From an uncultured Dysosmobacter sp. (GTDB lineage: Bacteria > Bacillota > Clostridia > Oscillospirales > Oscillospiraceae), in contig CANQPD010000002.1 in assembly GCA_947625655.1 (NCBI GenBank), positions 62,001-126,000 on the forward strand: DNA of 64,000 nucleotides, read 5' to 3'. The notes below the pieces were generated by a model. That model was not told the DNA's origin. It ran no database searches and saw nothing but the letters and a program-made list of their open reading frames with translations. The position numbers and the translations under genes were made by a program. This document shows positions 7,160-27,438 of this stretch, piece after piece (the first letter of the stretch is position 1; every line of letters starts with the position of its first letter).

Positions 7160-7185
7160 AAATACCCGGTATTGAGTGGGAGTGA
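7160..7185 (+). other. Attachment site 1, guaA 3'-end-like
   Basis: AAAATACCCGGTATT followed by GAGTGGGAGTGA (core 7174-7185) reads K-I-P-G-I-E-W-E-stop, close to the conserved C-terminus of GMP synthase (GuaA, ...TIEWE). The frame is closed 9 codons upstream, so this is not guaA itself. It marks the border between the phage segment and element A. Compared with the two other cores (15185, 27427) it differs only at the third positions of the Glu codon and at the stop codon. Confidence 0.75.
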
Positions 7186-7245
7186 GTTTTTGAAACTCCG
7201 AACCCGTTGCGGCACAACGATTTTGCGGTTTTATATCTCTCTTTT

Positions 7246-7262
7246 GATAACGATTTGATAAC
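7246..7262 (+). repeat. Left arm-type direct repeat pair of element A
   Basis: GATAAC at 7246-7251 and 7257-7262, separated by GATTT (11-bp period), so both copies face the same side of the helix. The same pair recurs at 15066-15082 near the other end. It is the expected layout for arm-type binding of a tyrosine integrase. Confidence 0.7.
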
Positions 7263-7353
7263 GCTCCCCATAGGCCGTATCATTCTGTATCCCCAGTGGA
7301 TTGCGGGTAAAGAATGTTCTTTTGCGGCTTATAAGTGAGGACAACCATATTAG

Positions 7354-7389
7354 AAAGCCCTTACCGATGGCAACGTCGGTAAGGGCTTT
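7354..7389 (-). terminator. Terminator of the element A regulator gene
   Basis: A perfect 14-bp stem, AAAGCCCTTACCGA (7354-7367) and TCGGTAAGGGCTTT (7376-7389), around an 8-nt loop, directly downstream of the XRE gene stop at 7396. T-rich flanks on both strands suggest it may act in both directions. Confidence 0.75.
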
Positions 7390-7395
7390 TGCTGT

Positions 7396-7929
7396 CTATT
7401 CATCAGTATCGGGGCTATCTTTGAGTGCATCCACCAGGAAATCACTCAATTCCTGTGAGGGAACTTTTGCCCACCGCAGGGTGGTGTCGTACTTGGGGTA
7501 GTTGTACCGCCAGCGGTCATAGTCCTCCCTGGTGATCTCCCCGGCCTCCAGCTTCTTGGCCTGCTCCGCCCAGGCGGACAGCATATCAAGCATATTGGCA
7601 TAGGTCTTGCCTTTGGATTTGTCCAGACGCAGACAAACCTCGCCGTCAATCTCCCCAATAGTCAGCCCCCGAATATCCTCCAAAGCAAAGAGGGTGTGCA
7701 TCAGGCCGATGTCGGTATCTATGTCAGGGACGGTCAGGGCATCAGGGGAAATATCAAAGAAGTCAGCCAGGGTCTTTGTCAGGTCGGCCTTGGGGGTGCG
7801 GCTCCCGGTTTCATACTGTGCCATACGCACATCGGCGGAGCGTTCCGGGAAACCCACCACCATGCCAAGATACTTCTGTGTGATGCCCTTCATGTTGCGG
7901 AAGAAACGAATACGTTCACCAATCGCCAT
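7396..7929 (-). CDS. XRE-family transcriptional regulator of element A
   Basis: The N-terminal helix-turn-helix (about residues 5-62: GERIRFFRNMKGITQKYLG, then SADVRMAQYETGSRTPKADL) is of the Cro/C1 type. The C-terminal 115 residues end in a conserved segment (EITREDYDRWRYNYPKYDT, AKVPSQELSDFLVDAL) shared with the element B regulator at 15893. I chose the ATG at 7929 because GGAG lies about 10 bp upstream and the paralogue starts there. It is divergent from the excisionase-integrase genes and probably represses both directions through the shared intergenic operators. Confidence 0.85.
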   Translation of the reverse strand: MAIGERIRFFRNMKGITQKYLGMVVGFPERSADVRMAQYETGSRTPKADLTKTLADFFDISPDALTVPDIDTDIGLMHTLFALEDIRGLTIGEIDGEVCLRLDKSKGKTYANMLDMLSAWAEQAKKLEAGEITREDYDRWRYNYPKYDTTLRWAKVPSQELSDFLVDALKDSPDTDE

Positions 7930-7966
7930 AACTGCCAACTCCAATCTATGTAATGGGGACACTTGA

Positions 7967-8097
7967 AGTATAACAGATATGTTTAGACCAGTCAAGAGAA
8001 AAATAAATAAATTTGTTTATATTTTCTCGTTGGAAGGTCTTGACATAACGGAATAGAGTTAGTATAATAGGACTACGTTAAGCAAATAGCGTTAAAT
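7967..8097. promoter_or_regulatory. Divergent promoters and operators between regulator and integration genes of element A
   Basis: On the minus strand, TTGACT (7990-7995) and TATACT (7967-7972) with 17-bp spacing serve the XRE gene. On the plus strand, a perfect TTGACA (8040-8045) and TATAAT (8063-8068) with 17-bp spacing serve the excisionase and integrase. Inverted half-sites lie at 8003-8020 (ATAAAT, 6 bp, GTTTAT) and 8078-8095 (TTAAGC, 5 bp, GCGTTAA). GTTTAG also lies inside the minus-strand spacer. The same arrangement is in element B. Confidence 0.75.
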
Positions 8098-8118
8098 CAA
8101 AAGAAAGGAGGAATCCAT

Positions 8119-8307
8119 ATGGAGAACAGATTCATCCGGGCGGAAGAAGTTGCGGACGAGCTGGGTGTATCGAAGCCCTACGCCTATAAACTCATCCGGC
8201 AGCTCAACGAAGAATTGAAGGACAAGGGCTTCATCACCATCGCAGGGCGGGTCAACCGCCAGTATTTCAACGAACGGCTCTACGGGGCCAGAAAGGAAGG
8301 GAACTAA
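8119..8307 (+). CDS. Small excisionase-like winged/HTH protein of element A
   Basis: A 62-residue protein with a MerR/excisionase-like N-terminal HTH (FIRAEEVADELGVSKPYAYKLI) and a basic C-terminal part (TIAGRVNRQYFNERLYG). Such proteins precede integrase genes in many Firmicute elements and are thought to direct excision. The RBS is AAAGGAGGAA, 7 bp before the ATG. The stop codon abuts the integrase ATG. Its homologue is at 16760. Confidence 0.75.
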   Translation: MENRFIRAEEVADELGVSKPYAYKLIRQLNEELKDKGFITIAGRVNRQYFNERLYGARKEGN

Positions 8308-9384
8308 ATGCCAGTCTTTAAGGACGAAGCAAGAGGAACATGGTACGTCATGGTGCGGTATCAGGACTGGACGGGGGAGCGCAAACAGAAGTGCAAGCGT
8401 GGCTTTGCCACCAAACGGGAGGCCCAGGAGTGGGAGCGCAGTTTCCAGATGCAGACCTCCGGCGACCTGGATATGACCTTTGAAGCCTTTACCGAGCTTT
8501 ACACCAAGGATATGAAACCCCGGCTCAAGGAGAACACCTGGCTGACCAAGGAGAACATCATCCAGAAGAAAATTCTGCCCTACTTTGGCAAGCGGAAGAT
8601 TAGCGAGATCACCACCAAGGACGTGATCGCATGGCAGAACGAGTTGCTGGCCTACCGGGACGAGAAGCGCAAGCCCTACTCGGCTACCTACCTCAAAACC
8701 CTGCACAACCAGCTTAGCGCCATCTTCAATCACGCTGTCCGCTTCTATGAGCTGCGCTCCAATCCCGCCGCCAAGGCTGGGAACATGGGGTCAGAGGAAC
8801 GGAAGGAAATGCTGTTCTGGACGAAAGCGGAGTACCAGAAGTTTGCAGATGCCATGATGGACAAGCCCGTTTCCTACTACGCCTTTGAAATGCTCTACTG
8901 GTGTGGTATTCGGGAGGGGGAACTGCTGGCCCTGACCCCGGCAGACTTTGACTTTGAGGCCGGGACGGTGAAAATCAGCAAGTCCTATCAGCGGCTCCAC
9001 GGCAAGGACGTCATTACCACGCCAAAGACGAAGAAAAGCAACCGCACCATTAAAATGCCCAACTTCCTCTGTGACGAGATGAAGGATTACCTGGGGATGC
9101 TCTACGGTATCAAGAAGAAGGAGCGCATTTTCACCATCACGAAAAGCTATCTCCACCATGAGATGGACAGAGGGGCGAAGTCGGCAGGGGTCAAGCGTAT
9201 CAGAATCCACGACCTCCGGCATTCGCACATCTCACTTCTGATTGACATGGGCTTCTCCGCTGTGGCGATTGCTGACCGTGTGGGGCATGAGAGTATCGAG
9301 ATCACCTATCGCTATGCCCACCTGTTTCCGTCCAAGCAGACGGAAATGGCAGACAAATTGGACTTTGAAAGGATGGGAGCGTAA
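8308..9384 (+). CDS. int: Tyrosine site-specific integrase of element A
   Basis: The enzyme catalyses integration and excision. Its parts are an N-terminal arm-binding beta domain (GTWYVMVRYQDWTGERKQK, residues 10-28), a SAM-like core-binding domain (about 58-150), and a catalytic domain with R202 (CGIREGEL), H301-D-L-R304, H327 (RVGHES) and probable nucleophile Y336 (YRYAHLF). The length of 358 aa is typical of the Tn916/phage integrase group. It starts immediately after the excisionase-like gene and overlaps the next start by 1 bp. It is very similar along its length to the integrase at 16956. Confidence 0.95.
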   Translation: MPVFKDEARGTWYVMVRYQDWTGERKQKCKRGFATKREAQEWERSFQMQTSGDLDMTFEAFTELYTKDMKPRLKENTWLTKENIIQKKILPYFGKRKISEITTKDVIAWQNELLAYRDEKRKPYSATYLKTLHNQLSAIFNHAVRFYELRSNPAAKAGNMGSEERKEMLFWTKAEYQKFADAMMDKPVSYYAFEMLYWCGIREGELLALTPADFDFEAGTVKISKSYQRLHGKDVITTPKTKKSNRTIKMPNFLCDEMKDYLGMLYGIKKKERIFTITKSYLHHEMDRGAKSAGVKRIRIHDLRHSHISLLIDMGFSAVAIADRVGHESIEITYRYAHLFPSKQTEMADKLDFERMGA

Positions 9385-9704
9385 TGTCAGCTAAGAATTT
9401 GGACACTCACAACCGCTGGAGGAACAAGACCGTGGCCTTCCGGGTATCCCCGGAGGAAAACAAGCAGATTGACGCCGCTGTGCGGCTCTCTGGCCTGACG
9501 AAGCAGGACTACATCACCCGGCGGCTCTTAGACCGGGCCGTGGTGGTGCAGGGCAATCCCAGGGTCTACAAGGCCCTGCGTGACCAACTCGCCGCCGTCC
9601 TGGGGGAACTGCGGCGCATTGAGGCCGGGGGCGACGTGGGGGATGAACTTCTCGCCACCATTGACCTTATCTCAGTGACGCTGGGCGGCATGAAGGAGGA
9701 TTGA
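9384..9704 (+). CDS. MobC-like relaxosome accessory protein of element A
   Basis: A 106-residue protein that begins with an RHH-like DNA-binding region (TVAFRVSPEENKQIDAAVRL, then TKQDYITRRLLDR) and ends in helices. This is the pattern of MobC-type mobilization accessory proteins and related element-encoded regulators. The ATG overlaps the last base of the integrase stop. By family knowledge it would assist the relaxase at oriT; that is inferred here. Its counterpart is at 18032. Confidence 0.7.
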   Translation: MSAKNLDTHNRWRNKTVAFRVSPEENKQIDAAVRLSGLTKQDYITRRLLDRAVVVQGNPRVYKALRDQLAAVLGELRRIEAGGDVGDELLATIDLISVTLGGMKED

Positions 9705-9711
9705 TAGATTG

Positions 9712-10866
9712 ATGGATTCCAGAGAAACGAAAAGGACTGTCCCGGTTCCGTCTGTTGGCGCAGACGGGGAACAGCCCAATTCTCAAACAACTACCCAAAG
9801 TATAGCAGAGGAAACGGCTGAAAACAACCCCCAAGAGAAAGATTTAGAGGAAATGCTCCGGGATATGCGGCGCATGAACGACCCAGCCTACCTCCACACA
9901 GTTTCCATGAACGACCTTTACCAGAACATCTACCAGAGCAGACCGCCCGTAATAGACGGTCTGCTCTACCCTGGGACGTACCTCTTTGCGGGAGCGCCCA
10001 AGGTGGGCAAGTCGTTCCTGATGGCCCAGCTTGCCTACCATGTCAGCATGGGCCTCCCCCTGTGGGGCTACCCTGTCCACAAGGGGACTGTCCTCTATCT
10101 GGCGTTGGAGGACGACCACCGCCGCTTGCAGGGGCGGCTATACCGAATGTTCGGCACAGAGGGCACCGACAATCTGCTCTTTGCGGTCTACGCCAAACAG
10201 CTTGGCGTTGGCCTGGAGGAACAGCTAAAGAAGTTCGTCCGGGAACACCCGAACACCAAGCTGATTATCATTGACACCCTCCAGAAAATCCGGGAGGCTG
10301 GTGGGGATAAGTACAGCTACGCCAACGATTACGAGGTGGTGGGTAAGCTGAAACGCCTTGCCGATGATTGCGGCGTCTGCCTCCTGCTGGTACACCACAC
10401 TCGAAAGCAACAGGCAGATGACAAATTCGATATGATCTCCGGCACCAACGGTCTGCTGGGAGCGGCGGACGGGGCCTTTCTTCTTCAAAAGGAGAAGCGG
10501 ACAGACGGCAGCGCCGTTCTGGACGTGGCCGGGCGTGACCAGCAAGACCAGCGATTCTATCTTACCAGGGACAAGGAACGGCTGATATGGACGCTGGAGC
10601 GTACGGAAACGGAGGCATGGACAGAGCCGCCCGACCCGGTGCTGGAGGCCATAGCCGCCCTTGTGACGGCGGAGAAGCCGACCTGGGGTGGTACGGCCAC
10701 CGAGCTGGTAGCGGCGCTCCAGACCGACATGAAGCCCAACGCCCTGGCGATGCGGCTAAACGTCCGGGCCGGGAAGCTGCTGATAGACTACCACATCCGC
10801 TATGAGAACAGCAGGAGCCACGCCGGGAGAAGTATCAGCCTGACGCTGGAACCGTCCCAGGCGTGA
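9712..10866 (+). CDS. RepA-like AAA ATPase (replicative helicase type) of element A
   Basis: Walker A (GAPKVGKS, about residues 94-101), Walker B (TKLIIIDTL) and a following VHHTRK motif place it with the RecA-fold RepA/AAA_25 ATPases found in plasmids and elements. RepA of RSF1010 is a hexameric helicase that unwinds iteron origins. The N-terminal 45 residues are low-complexity. TTG (9709) and ATG (9712) are adjacent candidate starts after AAGGAGGA; I prefer the ATG. 9-bp iterons start at its stop codon, which supports an element replication role. Confidence 0.8.
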   Translation: MDSRETKRTVPVPSVGADGEQPNSQTTTQSIAEETAENNPQEKDLEEMLRDMRRMNDPAYLHTVSMNDLYQNIYQSRPPVIDGLLYPGTYLFAGAPKVGKSFLMAQLAYHVSMGLPLWGYPVHKGTVLYLALEDDHRRLQGRLYRMFGTEGTDNLLFAVYAKQLGVGLEEQLKKFVREHPNTKLIIIDTLQKIREAGGDKYSYANDYEVVGKLKRLADDCGVCLLLVHHTRKQQADDKFDMISGTNGLLGAADGAFLLQKEKRTDGSAVLDVAGRDQQDQRFYLTRDKERLIWTLERTETEAWTEPPDPVLEAIAALVTAEKPTWGGTATELVAALQTDMKPNALAMRLNVRAGKLLIDYHIRYENSRSHAGRSISLTLEPSQA

Positions 10867-11001
10867 CGACCGTGACGGCTGTGACGGCTTTTTTGAGAGT
10901 GGCGGCGGTGTCTGAAACATCGTCACGGTCGTCACGGCTGTCACGGGGAGCAGCAAAGTTTAGGCGGGGTGCAGGGTGCCCTTTTCAAAGGGCGGCCCTG
11001 C
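10863..11001 (+). repeat. Iteron clusters and hairpin, candidate replication origin of element A
   Basis: GTGACG occurs at 10863, 10872 and 10881 (9-bp period). The inverted form GTCAC occurs at 10922, 10931 and 10940, also with 9-bp period. A long hairpin follows (GCAGGG, T, GCCCTTT at 10971-10984 pairing with AAAGGGC, GG, CCCTGC at 10987-11001). The layout, next to a RepA-like ATPase gene, resembles iteron origins with single-strand initiation hairpins. The same organisation occurs in element B with different unit sequences. Confidence 0.6.
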
Positions 11002-11023
11002 TGGGGGAGGCAACCGCAGTTGC

Positions 11024-11124
11024 CGGGGGCAAAGCCCCCGCACCCCCTCGGGAGAGCCCACGGCACTTTCGCACCAACGGGGCGAAAGTGTCATAGTGGG
11101 TTATTACACTTCCCGCAGGAAGTG
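11024..11124 (+). other. Candidate oriT of element A
   Basis: Three hairpins precede the relaxase gene: CGGGGGC-AAA-GCCCCCG (11024-11040); a 12-bp stem with one mismatch (11064-11075 with 11079-11090); and CACTTCC-CGCA-GGAAGTG (11107-11124). Between the last two lies TCATAGTGGGTTATTA, which is identical at 20222-20237 in element B. Stem sequences differ between elements but pairing is kept, as expected of an oriT recognised by a relaxase. The nick position cannot be told. Confidence 0.7.
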
Positions 11125-11186
11125 ACTCCCCCGAACCCCCGTCCATTTTCAACAACCAAACATCTGAAACAGGAGGATTTTTGCCT

Positions 11187-12530
11187 ATGGCGAGAGGCGA
11201 CGGTATTGACCGTACCAACGCAAGAAATATGAGGCTGACCGAAACCAAGATCGGTAACACCCAGCAGCACAACGAGCGTGAGAAGGATTCCTATGTCAAT
11301 CAGGACATTGTACTGGAGCGGACGCCGCTCAATGTCCATTTCAAAACCCCGTCTGCCGGGTATCGGGAGATGTTTGCTCAAATGGAGGCCGACGGCGTGA
11401 TCTCCACCCGTGGCATCAAGGAGGATGCCTTTCGATACGGTGAGTTGGTCTTTGATGTAAACTCCGCTTACTTCTACAATCACGGCGGGTATGACTTCGC
11501 AAAACAATTTTACACCGAAGCCTATAAAGCCGCAATCAAAATCGTGGGCGGAGAGCAGTATATTTTGTCGGCGGTCATGCACGCTGACGAGCGCAACCGG
11601 GCCATGTCCGAGGCGCTGGGGGAGGACGTGTACCACTACCACCTCCATGTGGTTTATATCCCGGTAGTGGAGAAGGAGATACGCTGGACAAAGCGGTGCA
11701 AGGACAAGTCCCTGGTGGGCAAGGTCAAGGAAACGATCATGCAGGTGAGCATGAGCAAGAAGTGGGCGTCCAAGCCCATTCTGGACGAAACTACCGGGGA
11801 GCCGTTACGCACAGCTAAGGGCAAACCCGTTCTACGAAAGTCGTACAGTGTCCTGCAAGATGATTTCTTTGAGCATATGCGCTCCGCTGGCTATGACGAT
11901 GTAGAGCGTGGGGAACGTGGTAGTTCCGAAGAACATTTGACTGTTACGCAGTTCAAGACGGAGCGTGAGCAGGAACGGCTTGCACAGCTTCAAGAGGTGT
12001 CGGCGCTGGCCCAGGTTGAGGCCGACAAAAAGAATAAGGAGGCAGCATCAGCTGAGAAGAAAGCGGCCCAGGCCAGGGCTAAGCTGGACGATGTAGCGCC
12101 CTTGCTCAAGGGCATGGAGAAACTGGCGGCGGACTTCTCCGACGACCCGGAGCGGACGCTGCCGGAGGCGGGGCCGCTGGAATCGGCCAAGTCCTACCGG
12201 GAGAAAAAGGCCAAGCCCCTTTGGGAGAAGATCGTCAAGGTGCTGCGCTCCGTCTACCGGGCCTACTTCGACCTCAAGAGCAAGTTTGAGCGGTTGCAGA
12301 GCGCCTATGATCGTGAGGTCAGTAAGAACGGCTCCCTGTCAGCCAGGATTTATGAGGTTTGTGCCGAGAGGGACGGCTTGAAAGGGCAAGTCAGGGACTA
12401 TGAGCGGGTCAGACGGGCCATTGGCCCGGAACAGGCGGACAGGATACTGGAGGCAGCTTACCAGCAGGAACAGGTCGAAAAGGAGCAGAAATGGGGTGCA
12501 AGGTCAAAAATAAGGGTAGGCGCACGATAA
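11187..12530 (+). CDS. MobV-type relaxase (Pre/Mob, plasmid recombination enzyme) of element A
   Basis: The enzyme nicks oriT and leads the strand during mobilization. Motif I is HNER (residues 28-31). The metal-binding motif III is HADE (132-135) followed by H150, H152 and H154 (YHYHLH). Residues 260-447 are mostly coiled coil, ending in a signature (RAIGPEQADRILEAAYQQEQ) that recurs in a remnant at 27510. The ATG at 11187 follows AGGAGGA by about 9 bp; an in-frame TTG lies 6 bp earlier. It is homologous throughout to the relaxase at 20308. Confidence 0.9.
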   Translation: MARGDGIDRTNARNMRLTETKIGNTQQHNEREKDSYVNQDIVLERTPLNVHFKTPSAGYREMFAQMEADGVISTRGIKEDAFRYGELVFDVNSAYFYNHGGYDFAKQFYTEAYKAAIKIVGGEQYILSAVMHADERNRAMSEALGEDVYHYHLHVVYIPVVEKEIRWTKRCKDKSLVGKVKETIMQVSMSKKWASKPILDETTGEPLRTAKGKPVLRKSYSVLQDDFFEHMRSAGYDDVERGERGSSEEHLTVTQFKTEREQERLAQLQEVSALAQVEADKKNKEAASAEKKAAQARAKLDDVAPLLKGMEKLAADFSDDPERTLPEAGPLESAKSYREKKAKPLWEKIVKVLRSVYRAYFDLKSKFERLQSAYDREVSKNGSLSARIYEVCAERDGLKGQVRDYERVRRAIGPEQADRILEAAYQQEQVEKEQKWGARSKIRVGAR

Positions 12531-12553
12531 TCACAAAAAATGGAGGTAATTTC

Positions 12554-12613
12554 ATGGAAAAGTACATCTTTGACGAGGGCAACGGTCTGTGGTATGAGTT
12601 GCAGAGGGACTAA
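12554..12613 (+). pseudogene. Truncated tnpV-like gene (19 codons)
   Basis: ATGGAGGTAATTTC precedes ATG at 12554. The frame reads MEKYIFDEGNGLWYELQRD and then stops. From memory this is the start of the TnpV-type protein common in Clostridia mobile elements, which normally continues for about 100 more residues (YYIPCL and on). The break coincides with the start of the tet leader segment, so the tet cassette probably inserted or recombined here. Confidence 0.6.
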
Positions 12614-12736
12614 CAATATTCGGGCGTGTGCGGCGGAAATCGTGGACACAGAAATTATTTGCGCATGAGGCCCCAAATCGGAGGGTGTCCCGGTGAATGC
12701 CCTCCTGATTTATTTGGGACAGCGGGTAAAAACTTC

Positions 12737-12765
12737 TTGCATTTTAGAGTGTGCTATGCTATACT
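12737..12765 (+). promoter_or_regulatory. Promoter of the tet(W)-type gene
   Basis: TTGCAT (12737-12742) and TATACT (12760-12765) are 17 bp apart, about 30 bp before a 7-codon leader ORF. This matches the upstream organisation of the tet(M)/tet(W)/tet(O) group. Confidence 0.65.
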
Positions 12766-12797
12766 GCTGTCATCCTGATTTGAGGAGTCTATTCAAC

Positions 12798-13005
12798 ATG
12801 CGGCAAGGTATTCTTAAATAAAATTTGATAATGGGCACAAAAATAATTGCCCCTTGCAGGGGCTTGGTTTTTGTACCCAATTTAAGAATGCTTTTGCCTT
12901 TTTATCAAATATCGTGACGGATAACGGCTCATGTTAGCTGAATGCGTTTCTATGTATCCGAAGTCATGATCCCCAGCGGTAAAAGTATTTGCCGCTGGGG
13001 ATTTT
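12798..13005 (+). promoter_or_regulatory. Attenuator leader of the tet(W)-type gene
   Basis: A leader ORF (12798-12821) encodes MRQGILK after GAGGAG. Its end overlaps the left arm of an inverted repeat: ATTCTTAAAT at 12810-12819 and ATTTAAGAAT at 12880-12889. Inside lie paired GGG.ACAAAAA/TTTTTGT.CCC and GCCCC/GGGGC (12849-12863) stems. A second hairpin (CCCCAGCGG 12971-12979 with CCGCTGGGG 12992-13000, then ATTTTT) is a terminator. Tetracycline stalling of the ribosome on the leader would favour readthrough, as established for tet(M)-type genes. Confidence 0.75.
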
Positions 13006-13038
13006 TGCGCCCTTTTGGGCCTTGTATGGAGGATAGAC

Positions 13039-14958: not shown

Positions 14959-15065
14959 TACGCCACAGCAAGGATGGTTATTGCATTTCCCTGCCTTTCG
15001 TGGTAAAATGTAGTTGTAAACCACCAGAGAAAACAACAACCCTGCTACCCCCCGTTATCACCACC

Positions 15066-15082
15066 GATAACAATTTGATAAC
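15066..15082 (+). repeat. Right arm-type direct repeat pair of element A
   Basis: GATAAC at 15066-15071 and 15077-15082, 11-bp period, followed by AGCCCAT, which resembles the CTCCCCAT that follows the left pair. It lies 102 bp before the core at 15185. Confidence 0.7.
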
Positions 15083-15272: not shown

Positions 15273-15289
15273 AAAATTTCATTATTCAA

Positions 15290-19532: not shown

Positions 19533-19539
19533 ACCGAGT

Positions 19540-19640
19540 GCGACGGTCGCAACGGTGAAAATGATACCACAAAAACCACCGTCGCTATCGTCGCTATCGT
19601 TGCGGACAATGTGGCAAGTTCCCAAATTGGGAACTTGCCA
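19540..19640 (+). repeat. Iteron clusters and 14-bp palindrome, candidate origin of element B
   Basis: 9-bp units GCGACGGTC and GCAACGGTG (19540-19557) face three inverted units ACCGTCGCT, ATCGTCGCT and ATCGTTGCG (19578-19604). A perfect palindrome follows: TGGCAAGTTCCCAA (19612-19625) around a single A with TTGGGAACTTGCCA (19627-19640). The order iterons then hairpin mirrors element A at 10863-11001, with unrelated base sequence. Confidence 0.6.
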
Positions 19641-19657
19641 GAAAGGAAATGAAGCGA

Positions 19658-19912
19658 ATGAAAAATGTACAGATACCCTATGAGCTGTTCGTTGATCTTG
19701 TGCTGTACCACCTGAACGGCGAGGACGATTTCGACGAGGACATCCGGCGAGGATTAGAGCAAAAATTGGATGCCATGTTGAACAGACAACTCTATTCGCA
19801 GTACAAGACAGCACCCACCGGGGAGCAGCGAGAACAGGCAAAGCAGGAATACCTTGACCGACGTGGAGTGCCGCAGAGCTATCGCTGGACTACTTCTCCT
19901 TGGGAGCTATGA
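19658..19912 (+). CDS. Small conserved element protein of unknown function (84 aa)
   Basis: The protein (MKNVQIPYELFVDLVLYHL, then a run of acidic residues and RRGLEQKLDAMLNRQLYSQY) is of a type often seen in Firmicute conjugative elements. I know no function for it. ATG at 19658 is preferred because GAAAGG lies about 10 bp upstream; ATG 19649 is too close. A 10-bp hairpin (CAGGAGCGTG at 19913) directly follows the stop. Element A has no counterpart. Confidence 0.65.
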   Translation: MKNVQIPYELFVDLVLYHLNGEDDFDEDIRRGLEQKLDAMLNRQLYSQYKTAPTGEQREQAKQEYLDRRGVPQSYRWTTSPWEL

Positions 19913-20163
19913 CAGGAGCGTGCCACGCTCCTGTGGATGGCAGACAAAGCAGCACATTAGCTGACACAGGCCCCAGCGCATCCTACGTCCCCATCGAAAA
20001 ATCCGCAGATTTTGAGATGGATGGCAGAGTAGATTTTCACAATCTGCTCTGACTGTGGGCGGCGGCATTGGAGCAAATTCAGTTGCGGAAAGGCTGACGG
20101 TCACGCCGAATTTTGAGGATGTGGGTGCCACCCACAAGCCGAAAAAGGCGGCAAGGCATCCGT

Positions 20164-20253
20164 AGATGCCGCATACCCCCTCGGAGAGCCCACGATACTT
20201 TGTAGCCGCAGGATGAAAGTATCATAGTGGGTTATTACACTTCCGCAGAAGTG
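20164..20253 (+). other. Candidate oriT of element B
   Basis: CTCGGAGAGCCCACG, then a hairpin (ATACTTT 20195-20201 with AAAGTAT 20216-20222), the conserved TCATAGTGGGTTATTA, and CACTTC-CGCA-GAAGTG (20238-20253). Layout and single-stranded parts match element A while stems covary. The region 19934-20163 upstream shows no gene that I can support. Confidence 0.7.
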
Positions 20254-20307
20254 TTCCCCCAAAACGCTACCCCGTACCACCAACCAAAATTACAGGAGGA
20301 AATGCCT

Positions 20308-21594
20308 ATGGCAAGAGGCGACGGTATTCACCGTACCAGCGCGAGAAATATGAGAATGACAACGGATAAAGTTGCCAACGCTCAAGGTCATAATGAGCGT
20401 GAAAAAGAGAGCTATGTCAACCAGGACATTGTGCCGGAACGGCAAGGTATGAATGTCCATTTCAAAACACCTACCGCCGACTACACGGGTATGTTCGATC
20501 AGATGGTGGCAGACGGAACAATCTCCACCCGTGGTCTGAAAGCCGATGCAGAGAAATTCGGTGAACTGATCTTCGATGTCAATTCCGCTTACTTCTATAA
20601 CAACGGCGGCTATGACTTTGCAAAACAATTCTACGCCGAAGCCTACAAAAGTGCAATCGAAATTGTAGGCGGCGAACAGTATATTTTGTCAGCGGTCATG
20701 CACGCCGATGAACGCAATCGGGCAATGTCAGAAGCGTTAGGACAGGATGTGTACCACTACCATCTTCATGTGGTCTATATCCCCGTTGTGGAGAAAGAAA
20801 TCCGCTGGTCGAAACGATGCAAGGATGAATCACTCCGTGGCACCGTTAAGGAGCGTATCATGCAAGTCAGCATGAGCAAGAAGTGGGATTCCAAGCCGGC
20901 ACTTGACGAGAATGGGCAGGAGCTTCGCTCCAAGTCCGGCAAGCCTGTTCTGAAAAAATCCTATTCTGTGTTGCAGGATGACTTTTTCAATCACATGAGA
21001 GCTGCCGGATATACCGATATCGAGCGTGGCGAGCGTGGTAGCTCTGAGGAACATCTGACGGTCACACAGTTCAAGGTCGAGCGAGAGCAGGAACGCCTTG
21101 CAGACCTCACCGAGCAGACACAGCAGAAAGAAGCAGAAGCGGCGGCTCTGGATAAGAAAATTGAAAAGACCAGACAGAAGAAAGTCGACATTGAAAGTAT
21201 TGACAAAATCGAAGCCAGACCCGTCATGCTCTCGCCGTCAAGGGTGTCGCTTGAAAAAAACGAGTATGAAACGCTGGCTGCCGCTGCAAAGAAATATTAC
21301 ACACAGGAAAATCAGGAAGGCAAGCTGAAAAAGCTCTTGAAGGATGCCAAGAAAACCATTGCCGATCTGAAGATGAAAATCGAATTGCTGGTAACGGAAC
21401 TCTCTGCAGTCAAGGCAGAACTGGCACAATATAAGTCCATCCGTGGTAAGCTCCGCACAGCGGATTTGGAGCAGAAAAATGACCGGCTCCGTAGCAGACT
21501 TCGCACCTATGAGGATGTGATTTCCCGCAACAATTTGTGGTCTTATTTCTCTCGGCACAGAGAGAAAACGCCCACAAGGGACGATGTCCGTTGA
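20308..21594 (+). CDS. MobV-type relaxase of element B
   Basis: 428 residues. Motif HNER, then HADERNRAM and YHYHLHVVYIPV, as in element A. The C-terminal region is coiled coil but lacks the GPEQ tail of the element A protein. AGGAGGAA precedes two ATG codons (20302, 20308); the second matches the element A start (MARGDGI). Without conjugation genes in the element, transfer must rely on a helper. Confidence 0.9.
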   Translation: MARGDGIHRTSARNMRMTTDKVANAQGHNEREKESYVNQDIVPERQGMNVHFKTPTADYTGMFDQMVADGTISTRGLKADAEKFGELIFDVNSAYFYNNGGYDFAKQFYAEAYKSAIEIVGGEQYILSAVMHADERNRAMSEALGQDVYHYHLHVVYIPVVEKEIRWSKRCKDESLRGTVKERIMQVSMSKKWDSKPALDENGQELRSKSGKPVLKKSYSVLQDDFFNHMRAAGYTDIERGERGSSEEHLTVTQFKVEREQERLADLTEQTQQKEAEAAALDKKIEKTRQKKVDIESIDKIEARPVMLSPSRVSLEKNEYETLAAAAKKYYTQENQEGKLKKLLKDAKKTIADLKMKIELLVTELSAVKAELAQYKSIRGKLRTADLEQKNDRLRSRLRTYEDVISRNNLWSYFSRHREKTPTRDDVR

Positions 21595-21630
21595 TTCCCG
21601 TGTAGAGCTGGAAAAAATGTAAATTTTCAA

Positions 21631-21676
21631 ATGGGAGCGTCCAAATCGTACAGCGCATCATTTGGGCGCTTCCCAT
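21631..21676 (+). terminator. Hairpin after the element B relaxase
   Basis: ATGGGAGCGTCCAAAT (21631-21646) pairs with ATTTGGGCGCTTCCCAT (21660-21676) with one bulge and one GU pair. No long T-run follows, so termination is likely but not certain. Confidence 0.5.
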
Positions 21677-21740
21677 CCAAAAATCAGTCCACTTTTGCAG
21701 GTGATGAGCTGAGAAAAAATTGCGAAATACAGGAGGTTTT

Positions 21741-22037
21741 ATGAAAACAGGTCTTACCAAGAAGCAGAAAGCAACCAATGTCTATTTCAACGAGGCAGAC
21801 AGCATGGTCGAGGTCTGTACCTACAACACCGCACTCAAAAACAGGCTCACCGAGTACGCTGGGAAATATCCCTCTGAGTGTCGGTTGATTGACGATGATG
21901 GAAACGGCTGTTTGACCTTTGAGGTCAGTAAGGGACGCTTCGGCTTCAAGCTGACCGCCCCGTACACAGAAGAACGCCGGAAGGCTGCAAGCGATCTGGC
22001 GAAGAAAAATACTGAAAGGTTAAGGAGGCAAGCATAA
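21741..22037 (+). CDS. Small element protein of unknown function (98 aa)
   Basis: Not recognised beyond being typical of conjugative elements. The protein has a beta-rich middle (KATNVYFNEADSMVEVCTY) and a basic C-terminus (SDLAKKNTERLRRQA). ATG at 21741 follows AGGAGGTTTT; a TTG 21 bp upstream precedes the RBS and is rejected. Its stop overlaps the next ATG by 1 bp. Confidence 0.65.
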   Translation: MKTGLTKKQKATNVYFNEADSMVEVCTYNTALKNRLTEYAGKYPSECRLIDDDGNGCLTFEVSKGRFGFKLTAPYTEERRKAASDLAKKNTERLRRQA

Positions 22038-22282
22038 TGAATATTCTATCCTGCGCGTTCAATATGGATACCACCTGTGTGGAGCTTCGGCTGACAGATG
22101 GCACGCTGATCTCTATCGACTGCACCGCCGTAGAGAATGAGGTTGCTGACAATATGTATCAGCGATCCGAGCTGGACTATCTGATCTACAATGACCCGGT
22201 GGCGTATGCCGAACTGATACTGAACGGAGATCCCGAAACCTACTTGAAAACCGTAACAGAGTACAAACCTTTGGATGACTGA
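22037..22282 (+). CDS. Small element protein of unknown function (81 aa)
   Basis: 81 acidic residues (NILSCAFNMDTTCVELRLTD; DYLIYNDPVAYAELILNGD). It resembles small uncharacterised proteins (DUF6061-like) carried by Firmicute elements. It is coupled to the preceding gene through TAATG. A CCGCCCG/CGGGCGG hairpin follows. Confidence 0.6.
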   Translation: MNILSCAFNMDTTCVELRLTDGTLISIDCTAVENEVADNMYQRSELDYLIYNDPVAYAELILNGDPETYLKTVTEYKPLDD

Positions 22283-22290
22283 CCAACACG

Positions 22291-22325
22291 CCGCCCGTGG
22301 GAGAAATCCTGCGGGCGGTATTCCT
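22291..22325 (+). terminator. Probable terminator before the defence cargo
   Basis: CCGCCCG (22291-22297) and CGGGCGG (22312-22318) form a stem with a 14-nt loop, followed by TATTCCT. The short T-rich tail makes it a modest terminator. It separates the element backbone from the R-M genes. Confidence 0.5.
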
Positions 22326-22366
22326 CATTCTATCGGACGTTATACTCACTATCTCATGAGAATATC

Positions 22367-22395
22367 TTGAAAAGCAGTGTGCCATATGCTATAAT
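22367..22395 (+). promoter_or_regulatory. Promoter of the restriction-modification cluster
   Basis: TTGAAA (22367-22372) and TATAAT (22390-22395) with 17-bp spacing, 34 bp before the HTH gene that heads the cluster. Confidence 0.65.
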
Positions 22396-22428
22396 ATCTA
22401 AGAATCCGACAGTGAATGGAGAATGGCC

Positions 22429-22656
22429 ATGTCCGTAAGTTATGATAAACTTTGGAAACTGCTTATAGATAAGAAAATGAACCGTACCGAGTTGAAGGAT
22501 GCAGCGGGAATTAGCTTCAATGTTTTAGCTAAACTGGGCAGGAATGAATTTGTTTCGATGGAAAGTCTTCAAAAAATATGTCAGACCTTATCCTGCAATA
22601 TTGGCGAGATAATGGATTTCATCGAAGAAGATACTGTTGAGCATCAAGGGAATTAA
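22429..22656 (+). CDS. Small Cro/C1-type HTH protein, possible controller of the R-M system
   Basis: 75 residues containing one HTH (LWKLLIDKKMNRTELKDAAG, NVLAKLGRNEFVSMESL). It is of the HTH_26 type that often sits before methyltransferase genes. ATG 22429 lies 7 bp after GGAG; ATG 22423 is too close. It is 24 bp upstream of the methyltransferase. By analogy with C-proteins it may time expression of the nuclease, but no C-box was identified. Confidence 0.7.
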   Translation: MSVSYDKLWKLLIDKKMNRTELKDAAGISFNVLAKLGRNEFVSMESLQKICQTLSCNIGEIMDFIEEDTVEHQGN

Positions 22657-22680
22657 GCAAACATTAGGAGAGATTGATTT

Positions 22681-23667
22681 ATGCAGCAGCCTTTGACTTG
22701 TGTTGAAATATGTGCTGGTGCTGGTGGACAGGCTTTGGGTCTTGCAATGGCTGGTTTTGTCCATGTAGCACTTGTAGAGTATGAAAAAGATTATTGTAAA
22801 ATTTTGAAGCAGAACCGCCCCGAATGGAATGTTATTTGTGCCGATGTCCATGATTTTGATGGCCGTCCATATAAAGGCGTAGATTTGTTGGCTGGCGGGG
22901 TTCCTTGCCCTCCATTCTCAGTTGCAGGCAAGCAGCTTGGAAAGGAAGACGATCGAGATCTTTTCCCTGAGGCAATCCGCCTGATTAAGGAAATTCAACC
23001 GAGAGCCGTTATGCTTGAGAATGTACGAGGATTTCTTGATTCCGGTTTTGATGAATATAGAGATCATATTTTTACATCCATTCAAAAGCTGGGATATGTA
23101 ACGTATATTAAACTGCTGAACGCTTCTGATTATGGTGTTCCACAACTTCGCCCCAGAGTTGTTATTATCGGTATACGCAAAGATCAACTTGGCGCTTTTG
23201 CTTATCCAGATGAAAGGCCTGACAGTGCTCCATCCGTTGGCGAAACGCTTTATGACTTGATGGTTCAGAATGGCTGGAACGGCGCAAAGCAATGGGCAAC
23301 AAACGCCAACCGAATTGCTCCTACATTGGTAGGTGGCTCAAAAAAGCACGGTGGTCCTGATCTTGGCCCCACAAGGGCCCGAAATGCTTGGGCTGAACTT
23401 GGAGTAGATGGCCGGGGAATTGCAAATGAAGCTCCTGCCCCTGATTTTGAGGGAATGCCCCGTTTAACCAGCCGGATGATGGCACGGATTCAGGGATTTC
23501 CCGATACCTGGACGTTTGGAAACCGAAAAACAGTTGCCTGCCGGATGATTGGAAATGCTTTTCCTCCCCCGGTTGCTCAAGCAGTCGGAGAAAAAATAAA
23601 GGAGTGTCTTGAACATGGATGCATTGATAGCAAATGCGAGATTTCATTTTCACAAGCAGTTGTTTGA
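22681..23667 (+). CDS. DNA (cytosine-5) methyltransferase
   Basis: 328 residues with the m5C-MTase motifs in order: I (EICAGAGGQALGL, about 9-21), IV with catalytic C76 (GGVPCPPFS), VI (MLENVRGF, 111-118), VIII (QLRPRVVIIG), the target recognition region, and X (GNAFPPPVAQAVG). It should protect host DNA from the partner nuclease. Given the NgoMIV-type nuclease, a CCGG-containing site such as GCCGGC is likely; the exact sequence is inferred. It overlaps the nuclease gene by 53 bp. Confidence 0.93.
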   Translation: MQQPLTCVEICAGAGGQALGLAMAGFVHVALVEYEKDYCKILKQNRPEWNVICADVHDFDGRPYKGVDLLAGGVPCPPFSVAGKQLGKEDDRDLFPEAIRLIKEIQPRAVMLENVRGFLDSGFDEYRDHIFTSIQKLGYVTYIKLLNASDYGVPQLRPRVVIIGIRKDQLGAFAYPDERPDSAPSVGETLYDLMVQNGWNGAKQWATNANRIAPTLVGGSKKHGGPDLGPTRARNAWAELGVDGRGIANEAPAPDFEGMPRLTSRMMARIQGFPDTWTFGNRKTVACRMIGNAFPPPVAQAVGEKIKECLEHGCIDSKCEISFSQAVV

Positions 23668-24490
23668 AACCAATACCTTGACTTTGACCTCAGCTGGCGT
23701 TACATCCAATGCAGATACCAGCAGCCGCGGTTCAAAGGCGATTGCTCGCAGAATTGTTGATATTCTTGTGGAGGAACAGCATCATGCCGTTTCGACCGTC
23801 GATAAAATCTCTGGGCAGACACTTGGCAAGCAATTTGAAACGCTAACAATGGAGTTCCTCCGGGAGACTTTTCCTCAACTGCAAAATCTGCGTCCTGGAA
23901 AATGGACAATTCTCCAGCTTGGCAACAATAACAAGCTGAAAACCAGCGATTTTGCTCAGTATGAGCACCTCGCTTACCTGAACGCGCTTACTACACAAAA
24001 TGCGCAGTTGGCCGCTGCGCTCGGAAACGATTATCTTGTTGCGCCTGATGTTGTGGTTTACCGGGATTTGTATGAAGATGCCGAAATCAATGTAAGTCAG
24101 TGCATAGTCGATGATGATATCGGCAAAATGGCCGATATTCGGAAATCCAATGGAGGCAAACCAATCCTTCATGCAAGTGTTTCTGCAAAGTATACCATGC
24201 GCAGCGATCGGGCGCAGAACAGCCGGACAGAAGCATTGAACCTGATCCGTAATCGCAAAGGACACCTGCCTCACATTGTTGTGGTAACAGCAGAACCTAT
24301 GCCGAACCGGCTGGCCTCTCTTGCCCTCGGAACTGGCGATATAGACTGCGTATATCATTTTGCGCTCTATGAGCTGATCCGGGCGGTTAAGGAAGTCGGC
24401 TCTGAAGACGCAGTTGAAACATTGGAAACCTTGGTTCAGGGCAAGCGCCTCAAAGACATCTCGGACTTGCCGTTGGATTTGTCTGTGTAA
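23615..24490 (+). CDS. NgoMIV-family type II restriction endonuclease
   Basis: 291 residues. The active-site spacing equals that of NgoMIV: E75 (GKQFETL), D145 (APDVVVY), K192 in S-A-K (47 residues after D145) and E206 (14 after K192), each shifted by 5 from NgoMIV E70, D140, K187 and E201. R196, D198 and R199 (RSDR) match the residues that read CCGG. It cuts unmethylated foreign DNA, probably at GCCGGC or a relative. ATG 23615 lies 10 bp after AAAGGAG. Confidence 0.88.
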   Translation: MDALIANARFHFHKQLFETNTLTLTSAGVTSNADTSSRGSKAIARRIVDILVEEQHHAVSTVDKISGQTLGKQFETLTMEFLRETFPQLQNLRPGKWTILQLGNNNKLKTSDFAQYEHLAYLNALTTQNAQLAAALGNDYLVAPDVVVYRDLYEDAEINVSQCIVDDDIGKMADIRKSNGGKPILHASVSAKYTMRSDRAQNSRTEALNLIRNRKGHLPHIVVVTAEPMPNRLASLALGTGDIDCVYHFALYELIRAVKEVGSEDAVETLETLVQGKRLKDISDLPLDLSV

Positions 24491-24906
24491 TGGCTGATAC
24501 AATTTCTCCCGGAAGGAGAAGCGAAATAATGTCCCACATCAAAAGCAAGGACACCAGTATCGAGCTTTTGGTGCGGCGCAAATTGTTCTCGATGGGATAC
24601 CGTTACCGTGTGAATTACAAGGCGCTCCCTGGAAAACCTGACATTGTGTTCACAAAGAAAAAGGTGGCCATTTTTATTCACGGGTGCTATTGGCATGGGC
24701 ATGATTGCGGAAGCCGCTACGCACATTCCAGCCAGTCTAACAAGATGTACTGGGGCACAAAAATTGAGCGGACAAAGCAACGAGATGAAAAGCACATTCA
24801 GGCGCTTGAGGCTGACGGGTGGACAGTCGTAGTGCTTTGGGAGTGCCAGATTAGGCAAAGCTTTGATCAAACAGTGGAGTTTATTGTAAAAACACTGAGT
24901 GAATAG
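24490..24906 (+). CDS. vsr: Very short patch repair endonuclease Vsr
   Basis: Vsr nicks next to T:G mismatches produced by deamination of 5-methylcytosine. The residues used by E. coli Vsr are at the same numbers here: E25 (DTSIE), D51 (PGKPDIVF), H64 and H69 (FIHGCYWHGH). The 138-residue length is normal. It overlaps the nuclease stop by 1 bp, completing a C-M-R-V cluster. It limits mutation at the methylated sites. Confidence 0.93.
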   Translation: MADTISPGRRSEIMSHIKSKDTSIELLVRRKLFSMGYRYRVNYKALPGKPDIVFTKKKVAIFIHGCYWHGHDCGSRYAHSSQSNKMYWGTKIERTKQRDEKHIQALEADGWTVVVLWECQIRQSFDQTVEFIVKTLSE

Positions 24907-24995
24907 AAATGTTACGCTGAGAAGCAGATAGATTCCAAAATTATTGCTAAATGGAGCAGAATGCAGGAAAGCTTTAGGGGAGGAAAAAGCGAAAA

Positions 24996-26366
24996 ATGTA
25001 CGACCTATCCTCAAAATTCAACACATTCTACAGTTCTAATGTTGTTCTATCGCAAGCTGTTCAAGCTGAACTGTATGATAAGAAGGATTTGAATATTCAA
25101 CGCCTTAAGGACGGATTAAAAGAATATAACGAAGAGAACGGCACTTCGTATTCAGTGGTAGAAACTTGTGTTCAGGGAAGTGTAGCAATGTCTACAGTCG
25201 TTCAAAATGAAGACAGTGACTATGACATAGATGTTGCTGTTGTTTTTAGCAAAGCCGCTCTTGGTAATAAGGGTGCTCAAGCTACCAGAAACATGGTGGC
25301 AAATGCCCTTCGGAGAAAAACGAAGCAATTTAGTGCAGAGCCAGAAGTTAAAACCAGCTGCGTTCGGATAAAATACGCGGACGGTTATCACATCGATTTT
25401 GCTGTTTATAGGCGGTATTATGATACCGAGAATAATTGTTGGATTTATGAACATGCAGGGGCTGATTGGACAGAACGCGAACTTAAGGGCCTAACCGAAT
25501 GGTTTAAAACACAGAACGATGCTTCCGGCGGAAAACTTAGAAAAGTAGTCCGCCTCTCCAAAATGTTCTGTAAATCCCGAGATACATGGAAGAATATGCC
25601 GAGTGGATTGCTTCAGACTGTCCTATGTGATGAAAAATTACAATATTCCTATGATCGTATCGACGAGCTGTTCTATTATACGATGAAAGAGATCGTGGAC
25701 CGACTTGAAACAGATACATCTGTTGTTGCTCCCGTAGATAACAGTAGAGTCTTAACACCAAGGCAAAGCGACACGCAGAAAATGACTAACTGGAGGAACC
25801 GGCTTAAAAGTAAACTGGAAGATTTGGATGTTTTGTTTAAGGATGACTGCACAAAGCAAGATGCACTTCAAGCATGGTACGGTTTCTTCAACCATGATTT
25901 TTGGAATGAGCAGGTAGCCGAGTCGTCTAATTATTCTCAATCGCCAACGCAAATTTTTAAGTCTGTGTGTTCCTTTGCCGACACAGAGCAATTTATTGAG
26001 GACTTGTACCCGGTCAATCTTTGCTATAGTTGTAGAATATCTTGCCACGTCAGTGGAAACGGTTGGAGGCCTAAGCCATTATCTGAATTTCTAACAATGC
26101 TACGGCATTACTTACCGCACAATTTTGAAATTCGTTGTGTGATGGAATACACAAATTGTCCGCAGCCATACAAGATTTTATGGAAAGTTAAAAATGTGGG
26201 GCCCGAAGCCGAAAGACGGAATCAGCTCAGAGGACAAATTGTTGAAAAGGGGAAGGGCATAGTTGAACACAGTAGATTTTTCGGCAACCACTATATAGAA
26301 TGTTTTATTATTAAGAATGGAATATGTGTTGCGAAAACAAGGGTTGATATTCCGATTGGTAGGTGA
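24996..26366 (+). CDS. CBASS CD-NTase (SMODS) with C-terminal AGS-C sensor domain
   Basis: The enzyme should make a cyclic oligonucleotide signal on phage infection. The nucleotidyltransferase motif is GS (residues 61-62) followed by D75, D77 and D79 (SDYDID), with a third acidic residue D134 (YHIDFAVYR). The C-terminal part (about 335-456: CYSCRISCHVSGNGW, ILWKVKNVGPEA, NHYIECFIIKNG) fits the AGS-C domain fused to many SMODS enzymes. The 456-residue length is usual. The effector gene follows after 7 bp. No Cap2/Cap3 or HORMA genes are present, so this is type I CBASS. Confidence 0.88.
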   Translation: MYDLSSKFNTFYSSNVVLSQAVQAELYDKKDLNIQRLKDGLKEYNEENGTSYSVVETCVQGSVAMSTVVQNEDSDYDIDVAVVFSKAALGNKGAQATRNMVANALRRKTKQFSAEPEVKTSCVRIKYADGYHIDFAVYRRYYDTENNCWIYEHAGADWTERELKGLTEWFKTQNDASGGKLRKVVRLSKMFCKSRDTWKNMPSGLLQTVLCDEKLQYSYDRIDELFYYTMKEIVDRLETDTSVVAPVDNSRVLTPRQSDTQKMTNWRNRLKSKLEDLDVLFKDDCTKQDALQAWYGFFNHDFWNEQVAESSNYSQSPTQIFKSVCSFADTEQFIEDLYPVNLCYSCRISCHVSGNGWRPKPLSEFLTMLRHYLPHNFEIRCVMEYTNCPQPYKILWKVKNVGPEAERRNQLRGQIVEKGKGIVEHSRFFGNHYIECFIIKNGICVAKTRVDIPIGR

Positions 26367-26373
26367 TAACTTC

Positions 26374-27273
26374 ATGAAAATTGGAAAGTTAATTGGACTT
26401 GTTTTTGTATCTGCTATTTCCATCACGATTATATTCCTTTTTGAAATAAAGAATTGGCCTGCTGGAAGTAGCCTCTCAGGTATCGTACTCGGTTTCTCTC
26501 TTCCGGGACTCTGGCACTCGATTCAAGATCTTCTGGACACGACAAATTGGAAGGTATCTCAGAGGAGATTGAAACGTGGTGGTTTTATCACAGATGACAC
26601 CATCATCCGTATTTCATTCGCCTACCTCTATCGGATCAAGATAAGCGACAAATATCTCCTGGTTAAAAATGAACGTGGAACCGGGAAGTATCAGCCGGTG
26701 GGTGGCGTTTATAAACTAAAAGGAAATGAAAAAATTGAACTGAAAAATCGTTTCCTTGTAAAAGATGACAATAAGGTGTCGATTGACGAGTCCTCTCGTG
26801 ATGATTATCGGCTTCGAATGGAGAACCAGTACCTACGAAAATTCGTTAAACGGTTCAACAAGAAAGCAGAACGGGAGCGAGTTGATGACTTAAGTCGAGA
26901 GTTCGAGGAAGAACTTGTAAAAACAGGTATTGTCAACTGGAAACAGATTACATACCGTTTTTGCGGTAGACATATGACAGAACTGAAATTCGGAGAGCAC
27001 TTTCAAATTTATGAACTTCTTCTTGCTGATGTGGTTGAATTGATACCCACTCCTGAGCAAGAGCAGGATTTACAGAGGTTGATGGCACAACAGTCCGATA
27101 TGTATCGTTTTGCCACAGCTGAGGAAATCATCTCGCTCGGAATTAATACGGCAACTGGCAATCTTGAGGAATCTATCGGTGACCACACTAAGAAAACTAT
27201 TCAGGAGAACGAGAGGCAACTGATGAAAATTCCTGGTGTTGGTAAAGAGTATACCGTACAACTCAATGATTGA
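26374..27273 (+). CDS. CBASS effector: membrane-anchored SMODS-associated NUDIX protein
   Basis: 299 residues. Two N-terminal hydrophobic helices lie at about 5-24 and 34-52 (LIGLVFVSAISITIIFLF). A domain follows with NUDIX-like features: GTGKYQPVGGVYKL (about 106-119), and the core REFEEELVKTG near 180-190. This matches the SMODS-associated NUDIX effectors with transmembrane helices (Cap16-type). The signal from the CD-NTase would trigger membrane damage and death of infected cells; the mechanism is inferred from the family. ATG 26374 is chosen over 26317, which lies inside the upstream gene. Confidence 0.8.
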   Translation: MKIGKLIGLVFVSAISITIIFLFEIKNWPAGSSLSGIVLGFSLPGLWHSIQDLLDTTNWKVSQRRLKRGGFITDDTIIRISFAYLYRIKISDKYLLVKNERGTGKYQPVGGVYKLKGNEKIELKNRFLVKDDNKVSIDESSRDDYRLRMENQYLRKFVKRFNKKAERERVDDLSREFEEELVKTGIVNWKQITYRFCGRHMTELKFGEHFQIYELLLADVVELIPTPEQEQDLQRLMAQQSDMYRFATAEEIISLGINTATGNLEESIGDHTKKTIQENERQLMKIPGVGKEYTVQLND

Positions 27274-27308
27274 TCGGTAGGATCTTGTATCTATTATAGC
27301 TCAATCAT

Positions 27309-27325
27309 GGCAACACATTGGCAAC
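27309..27325 (+). repeat. Right arm-type direct repeat pair of element B
   Basis: GGCAAC at 27309-27314 and 27320-27325 with ACATT between, followed by AAAAAAT, matching the left pair at 15256. It is 101 bp from the core at 27427. Confidence 0.7.
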
Positions 27326-27426
27326 AAAAAATCAGATAGCCCATGCCGTCTGAATAATGAAAGTAATCCAAATAATCTGAACTAAATCCCATAAGCAAAA
27401 CTGTTTAAGATTTCTTTTTCAGGAGC

Positions 27427-27438
27427 GAGTGGGAATAA
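27427..27438 (+). other. Attachment site 3: right end of element B
   Basis: GAGTGGGAATAA, identical to the core at 15185. It is followed within 13 bp by a strong terminator, as would be expected after the stop codon of guaA. Confidence 0.8.

Follow-up and report, generated by a model that had tools for sequence, protein, structure and literature searches.

The use of the 3' end of guaA, the gene encoding GMP synthase, as an insertion site is already in print, as are the bases GAGTGGGA at that site and the stacking of elements in accretion tandems (PMC4844618, PMC9376610, PMC5704250). GIsul2 has its site, GAGTGGGA, at the guaA 3' end, where both excision and integration have been reported (PMC9376610), while ATE-1 of Trueperella pyogenes is listed as an integrative mobilizable element (IME) at the same gene end (PMC5704250). 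Here, we describe a 64,000-nucleotide stretch of an uncultured Dysosmobacter sp. of the order Oscillospirales (assembly GCA_947625655.1, contig CANQPD010000002.1, hereafter C2), covering C2:62001-126000 and referred to as the window; C2 is 370 kb long, and the genome comprises 3.15 Mb in 47 contigs. The window contains the right-hand part of what is very probably an accretion array at the guaA 3' end, consisting of a prophage followed by two IMEs, elements A and B, with related integrases of their own.

The elements are delimited by a core pattern, GAGTGGGA(A/G)T(A/G)A, which occurs exactly at 7174, 15185 and 27427, always on the forward strand (+), with 0 occurrences expected from 100 shuffles. 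Allowing up to two mismatches gives 14 core-like matches in the window against a shuffled mean of 13.6, which is chance level, so the weight rests on the exact sites only. Across the whole genome the pattern is found four times and a reversed control 0 times. The fourth core, C2:6689-6700, coincides with the terminal codons and the stop codon of a guaA lying 55.3 kb to the left of the window; this gene (C2:5159-6700) is an intact, uninterrupted frame of 513 amino acids scoring above its family cut-off. The core at 7174-7185 (+, GAGTGGGAGTGA) is read as the prophage attR and the attL of A, from the exact core, the flanking arms and the start of A in other genomes; that at 15185-15196 (+, GAGTGGGAATAA) joins the attR of A to the attL of B, from the exact core, the flanking arms and the end of A elsewhere; and that at 27427-27438 (+, GAGTGGGAATAA), an exact core with an arm repeat on its left side only, is the attR of B and the right end of the array. 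The G+C content steps down at the left core, from 0.68 (6001-7000) to 0.52 (7001-8000), and rises at the right end of the array from 0.52 (27001-28000) to 0.66 (28001-29000). A first-pass annotation of the window had named the three cores, seen sharp changes of gene content at each, expected a guaA ending in the same core to the left, and proposed the order guaA, phage, A and B at a single site; the exact core matches, the G+C steps near 7001 and 28001, the intact guaA, and the gene content together with the four cores bear this out.

Each element is further marked by arm-type repeats. When the surroundings of the cores were scanned by script for short direct repeats, a single 11-bp-spaced repeat emerged at either side of each element, with the same motif at both ends of an element and different motifs between elements, i.e., CGTACCA in the prophage, GATAAC in A and GGCAAC in B. 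In each of the three elements, the right arm begins at -119 relative to the right core; it reads CGTACCA twice at 11 bp in the prophage (7055-7072), GATAACA twice in A (15066-15083) and TGGCAACA twice in B (27308-27326), all +. The left arms lie at +102 from the left core, that of guaA, in the prophage, at +58 in A (TTTGATAACG twice at 11 bp, 7243-7263, +) and at +60 in B (GGCAAC twice, 15256-15272, +). Of 5000 segments of 160 nt placed at random on C2, 3.4% contain such a repeat. The 160 nt right of 27438 contain no arm-type repeat, and the guaA side of the array has a single unrelated repeat, CCGCAT, within coding sequence. In other genomes, right arms of the strict motif occurred solely at -118 to -120 within a searched interval of -123 to -115. 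By its four cores and matched arms, the locus is an accretion array of complete elements at one attB with att cores between them, and other guaA arrays are present in many genomes.

There is next to no probability that the cores match by chance or reflect a general motif with no link to integration. It is a short motif that elsewhere in the order often stands without arms or guaA; indeed, the core 12-mer is present in 313 of 394 genomes of this order and the reversed control matches in many too, making the 12-mer alone weak evidence in other genomes. Yet the shuffles, the genome-wide excess over the control and the matched arms all contradict chance, which is refuted for the window by the common ends of A in other hosts together with guaA ends that lack A.

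These common ends were obtained by comparing A plus 500 bp on each side with loci collected from other genomes. Near-complete A was found in 8 distinct contigs at 96.6-99.1% identity (two further loci, L154 and L155, are repeats of contigs L049 and L066), with hosts including Selenomonas bovis, Mitsuokella jalaludinii, Pseudoflavonifractor phocaeensis and a Flavonifractor. The first-pass annotation had singled out related elements ending elsewhere as a check on the boundaries; the match starts at 7170-7171 in 8/8 contigs and ends at 15186-15197 in 6/8 (L042, L044, L049, L050, L051 and L066), while in L040 and L057 it runs ~140 bases further (15334-15336) into a B-like next element. The remaining A-like rows are partial, several being on short contigs, some covering the left part only and four the resistance-gene part only. 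A Subdoligranulum variabile record of a plasmid collection carries A at 99.1%, as the sole one of 19 matching records to cover at least 80% of A. Among viral contigs with integrases like those of A and B, 6 distinct loci showed no attP layout, as an excised circle would have. For the prophage, the viral contig L119 has a single core in 57,047 bases with phage-type CGTACC arms on both sides, i.e., an attP layout, and its start aligns with the right arm of the prophage (81% over 42 nt).

The same material bears on how the stack is to be divided. Since all cores are co-oriented, the outer pair (guaA and 27427) could recombine, and transfer of a whole tandem is known (PMC5704250), so the region could be imagined as one composite element that moves as a unit and whose inner cores are relics. 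Such a composite is improbable, given that every part comes with an integrase, an Xis-like gene and matched arms of its own, and that A also stands directly behind guaA in other genomes. Still less probable is an assembly chimera in which several guaA insertions were joined at a common repeat: the stretch in common is merely 8-12 nt, presumably too short alone to mislead an assembler, and both junctions have element-specific flanks within a contig of 370 kb. In favour of a chimera are the 47 contigs of the genome and some contigs of other genomes that end near such cores, so that these sites can interrupt assemblies.

Several observations weigh against the array as drawn here. It is read from assembled sequence, and excision and circles are predicted from it. 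In other genomes, the A-like copy L056 has a break near 10950 and its match stops at 14942, and core regions discussed below contain 12-mers with neither arms nor a guaA frame. The last 8 kb of L119, the far end of phage contig G418, gave no alignment with the right end of the prophage. Comparison with relatives did not establish the sequence beyond 27438 as the former neighbour of guaA: in 12/12 relatives with matches to both guaA and an RND pump the two lie on different contigs, and in the 7 relatives checked the 1.5 kb following the pump contained no core 12-mer. This flank also holds a remnant of a MobV relaxase C-terminus (27526-27640, +), similar to the relaxase gene of A (85% over 40 nt) and to part of L209 (83% over 119 nt), which is perhaps the trace of an older, lost element.

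With the array at the guaA 3' end as the preferred reading, the point of strand exchange can be narrowed down for A. In 7/32 distinct elements with both ends read, the second codon of attR is TTT, TTC or TAC (Phe or Tyr) and not TGG; the left ends of this set were picked by TGGGA, and only the homology-found copies of A are free of that bias. Among these copies, L044, L050 and L051 have TGG at the left end of A and TTT, TTC and TAC at the right end. In the genera of L050 and L044, 10 guaA genes end in E-W-E in 3/3 cases followed by A and in E-F-E in 7/7 cases without arms, and in L050 the sequence bordering A on its right aligns with the guaA end of an A-free congener (81% over 107 nt). The differing Trp codon at the two ends of A, together with the guaA ends with and without A, places the exchange of A left of this codon; as the base before GA is also unlike between the two ends of A in L049, L057 and L066, the exchange lies inside GA(A/G)T. 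Mapped by comparison in this way, A supplies the last two GuaA codons (TGG GAG) and the stop and so rewrites the GuaA C-terminus, leaving protein length unchanged. GAGTGGGA was accordingly dropped as the crossover, as right ends with TTC, TTT or TAC do not carry it. The first-pass view of the core as an integration site thus stood insofar as guaA does end in the core, and gave way in that the 12-mer itself is not where A crosses over. GuaA ends of the E-F-E type with arms at the same distance, 20 among 51 arm-followed ends, belong to other family members, and one element lineage has both TGG (L111, L114 and L117) and TTT (L115 and L118) at its left end. In two same-genus genomes (G010 and G005), guaA ends in E-F-E or E-Y-E; this was first read as escape from integration, which became disfavoured after guaA ends had been compared in the two other genera, and plain sites without an element seem likelier.

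As a separate observation, a second, shorter GuaA-like gene stands behind the full guaA in some loci, with its end as the occupied site (L059 7736-8896, L032 3034-4032 and L306 4712-5998). The full guaA ends in V-E-F-E in L059 and in V-E-W-L in L032, not in E-W-E. Possibly, the short gene is a docking copy that earlier elements left behind.

The arm repeats were followed through the wider integrase family. A GTDB scan with the integrase of A gave 448 relatives, and among the best 80 of 448 loci, 55 guaA ends were readable, an arm repeat following 51 of them and not the other 4. A relative of the integrase of B at E <= 1e-80 occurs in at least 74 of the 394 genomes of the order, with at most five candidates scored per genome. 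Regions were examined around 60 chosen integrase matches and 80 chosen core matches among those listed, 17 of the 80 having been picked for two or more cores on one contig. Among the 94 core 12-mers of the 80 core regions, arms or a guaA frame accompany 39 distinct ones (16 with the frame and no arms); the remainder have neither. In a less biased set of 35 guaA ends with enough sequence on their right side, arms follow 16, in the classes GGCAAC (6), GATAGC (4), GATAAC (2), GATACT (2), GACAAC (1) and GACAAT (1). On a maximum-likelihood tree of 59 distinct integrases from behind left arms, the 8 arm classes are accounted for by 8 changes, against a minimum of 7 and a mean of 31.6 after shuffling, and 0/200 shuffles gave as low a number. 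For 39 integrases below 95% identity, the nearest neighbour is of the same class in 36 cases by the arm-binding domain, 34 by the full protein and 30 by the catalytic part, where 8.2 are expected by chance. The arm domain is also the most class-distinct part, with 0.77 within and 0.53 between classes compared with 0.79 and 0.70 for the catalytic part. Repeat class follows integrase lineage.

Neighbours in stacks tend to differ in arm class. By the strict motif, 28 cores have arms on both sides, one being the attP layout of L119 and 27 joining two elements; the class differs across 26/27 of these junctions, where a hand calculation from class frequencies gives ~6.5 same-class junctions by chance. 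Permutations on 26 pairs gave P values of 0.016 (one group) and 0.001 (within sets), and 0.21 for the second set alone; these values overstate the effect because the integrases of A and B had served to select the loci. The permutation set was made without L059 and L191, whose right repeat lies outside the family motif, and without L119; the strict-motif count is also without L176 and includes L245 and L267 from later-fetched loci. Sampled as they were via two integrases, the loci make unlike classes of neighbours a suggestive tendency. As a strict rule it was dropped, being broken, to the detriment of the proposal below, by L196 and by a tandem of A in Subdoligranulum variabile. In L196, the core at 4841 (minus strand) is flanked on either side by GGCAAC arms, and no relative of the three integrases was found in the 4.8 kb past this core; the neighbour is perhaps an integrase-less element relying on the one next to it. 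In S. variabile OY725880.1 (L306 5990-22023), two copies of A, 99.99% identical, stand in tandem behind the short second guaA and are followed by a GATAGC-class element. Near-identical tandems of this kind could be collapsed in short-read assemblies.

Taken together, the prophage, A and B very probably entered the one site successively. The catalytic part of each integrase would bind the core and its N-terminal domain its own arm repeats, and an incoming element would use the core that borders a resident one. A and B may excise with the help of their Xis-like protein, a conjugative element acting in trans may mobilize them via the MobV relaxase, and the phage would leave as a circle. Distinct arm classes would then lower cross-excision between neighbours. 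It is possible, if less than probable, that a phage and mobilizable elements with integrases of one superfamily share a 4-bp exchange site in guaA and rewrite its last two codons, and that diversified arm repeats, recognized by the N-terminal domain of the integrase, keep them functionally separate, stacks of unlike elements persisting and stacks of like ones being unstable or rare.

The gene content agrees with this division into three elements. The prophage measures 62.5 kb (C2:6689-69185) by its phage gene set and cores, its right end being 1-7173 (+) of the window. Judged by its genes, it has what a temperate phage carries, i.e., integrase, repressor, packaging, head, tail and lysis functions, and the PHROGs families comprise terminase, portal, major head, tape measure, baseplate, tail, reverse transcriptase and endolysin. 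The integrase (C2:6786-8015, -; Pfam) lies 86 bp from the guaA core with a repressor-like gene adjoining, and the endolysin (11-889; PHROGs and Pfam) and an ADP-ribosylglycohydrolase gene (5860-6825) are found in the right end. Left of the window, at C2:57084-59277, the prophage encodes a diversity-generating retroelement with a reverse transcriptase (RVT_1) and template and variable repeats (C2:57084 and C2:59188), recognized by 14/14 mismatches in a 90-nt window falling at template adenines.

Element A spans 8.0 kb from core to core (7174-15196). A repressor-like helix-turn-helix (HTH) protein (7396-7995, -), whose RstR-family match is far under the cut-off (34.8 of 80 bits), is followed by an excisionase-like small HTH protein (8119-8307, +), assigned tentatively from weak HTH matches below cut-off. 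The latter is 57% identical to its counterpart in B and 50% to that in the prophage, and the similar small proteins of all three elements are probably excisionases. Then follow, all + and by Pfam, the tyrosine integrase (8308-9384; Arm-DNA-bind_4, SAM-like and Phage_integrase), a NikA-like mobilization accessory protein (9384-9704), a RepA-like AAA_25 ATPase (9709-10866) and the MobV (Mob_Pre) relaxase (11181-12530). A candidate origin of transfer (oriT; 11084-11113, +) shares 97% identity over 30 nt with a segment of B that immediately precedes the relaxase, and may resemble the nick region of pMV158. The cargo is a tet(W)-type ribosomal protection gene (13045-14958, +), which is over the NCBIfam cut-off for the TetM/TetW/TetO/TetS family and under that for Tet(M).

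Element B spans 12.2 kb (15185-27438, core to core) and has the same backbone. It begins with an open reading frame of 183 amino acids (15335-15886, -) without a match in PADLOC, the one library scanned, and a repressor-like HTH protein (15893-16423, -) that resembles that of A by eye. The excisionase-like protein (16760-16951, +), the tyrosine integrase (16956-18029, +; 70% identity to that of A and 45% to that of the prophage), the NikA-like protein (18026-18367, +; Pfam), the AAA_25 ATPase (18522-19532, +; Pfam), the candidate oriT (20215-20244, +), matching that of A, and the MobV relaxase (20227-21594, +; Pfam) follow. The cargo consists of a cytosine methyltransferase, an NgoMIV-type restriction enzyme and a Vsr endonuclease (22681-24906, +; Pfam and PADLOC), and of a cyclic oligonucleotide-based antiphage signaling system (CBASS; 24996-27273, +; PADLOC), recognized by a cGAS/DncV-like nucleotidyltransferase, here a DncV-like cyclase, and an adjacent 2TM-NUDIX effector. 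Both A and B qualify as IMEs, with an integrase and att sites of their own and a Mob_Pre relaxase and candidate oriT without a mating apparatus; no conjugation genes were found among their scanned reading frames, the small ones of B having been scanned in part.

A resistance element, a defence island and a prophage thus share one dock in a host whose nearest relatives in the searches are gut Oscillospiraceae. The arm repeats offer a readable code that helps to delimit elements, separate neighbours and locate right ends even where the core differs, and insertion of A alters the C-terminus of GMP synthase. If arm codes do insulate neighbours, stable stacking on one site becomes testable. The less expected parts may be the prophage with an integrase of the same superfamily, the exact arm geometry with distinct classes per stack and the rewritten GuaA end. 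Titles and abstract openings in the literature, with most subscription papers outside this scope, held nothing on arm classes of guaA arrays or a rewritten Trp codon, which is no proof of novelty.

Among the known systems, GIsul2 shares with A and B the same eight bases, the same gene end and an integrase; it differs in the other genes named for it, alpA, stbC, resG and sul2, and of its backbone the likeness drawn here concerns the reported site (PMC9376610). Tn5801-like elements have the guaA 3' end, 11-bp direct repeats and tetracycline resistance in common with the array (PMC4844618). However, they are 25 kb long with conjugation genes and tet(M) (PMC4844618), whereas A and B carry a MobV relaxase, and A, at 8.0 kb with int, a NikA-like gene, AAA_25, MobV and a Tet(M/W/O/S)-family gene, lacks the Tn916-type conjugation module with tet(M). 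The Tn5801-like comparison of the first-pass annotation therefore holds for the insertion site and fails for the mode of transfer, A and B being MobV mobilizable. ATE-1 harbours tet(W) (PMC12904643) and is likened to A by description; no Trueperella was among the best 80 of 448 integrase relatives. IME_Rho_tet, a broad-host tet(W) mobilizable element of gut bacteria, is like A in these respects (PMC12904643) and unlike it in using a serine recombinase with MAFF2 or other sites (PMC12904643), where A has a tyrosine integrase and guaA; A therefore falls outside that group. Finally, accretion tandems of integrative and conjugative elements, IMEs and cis-mobilizable elements resemble the array in stacking at the same site with distantly related integrases (PMC5704250), and the array differs from the reviewed tandems in having a prophage in the stack and arm-repeat classes that can be read.

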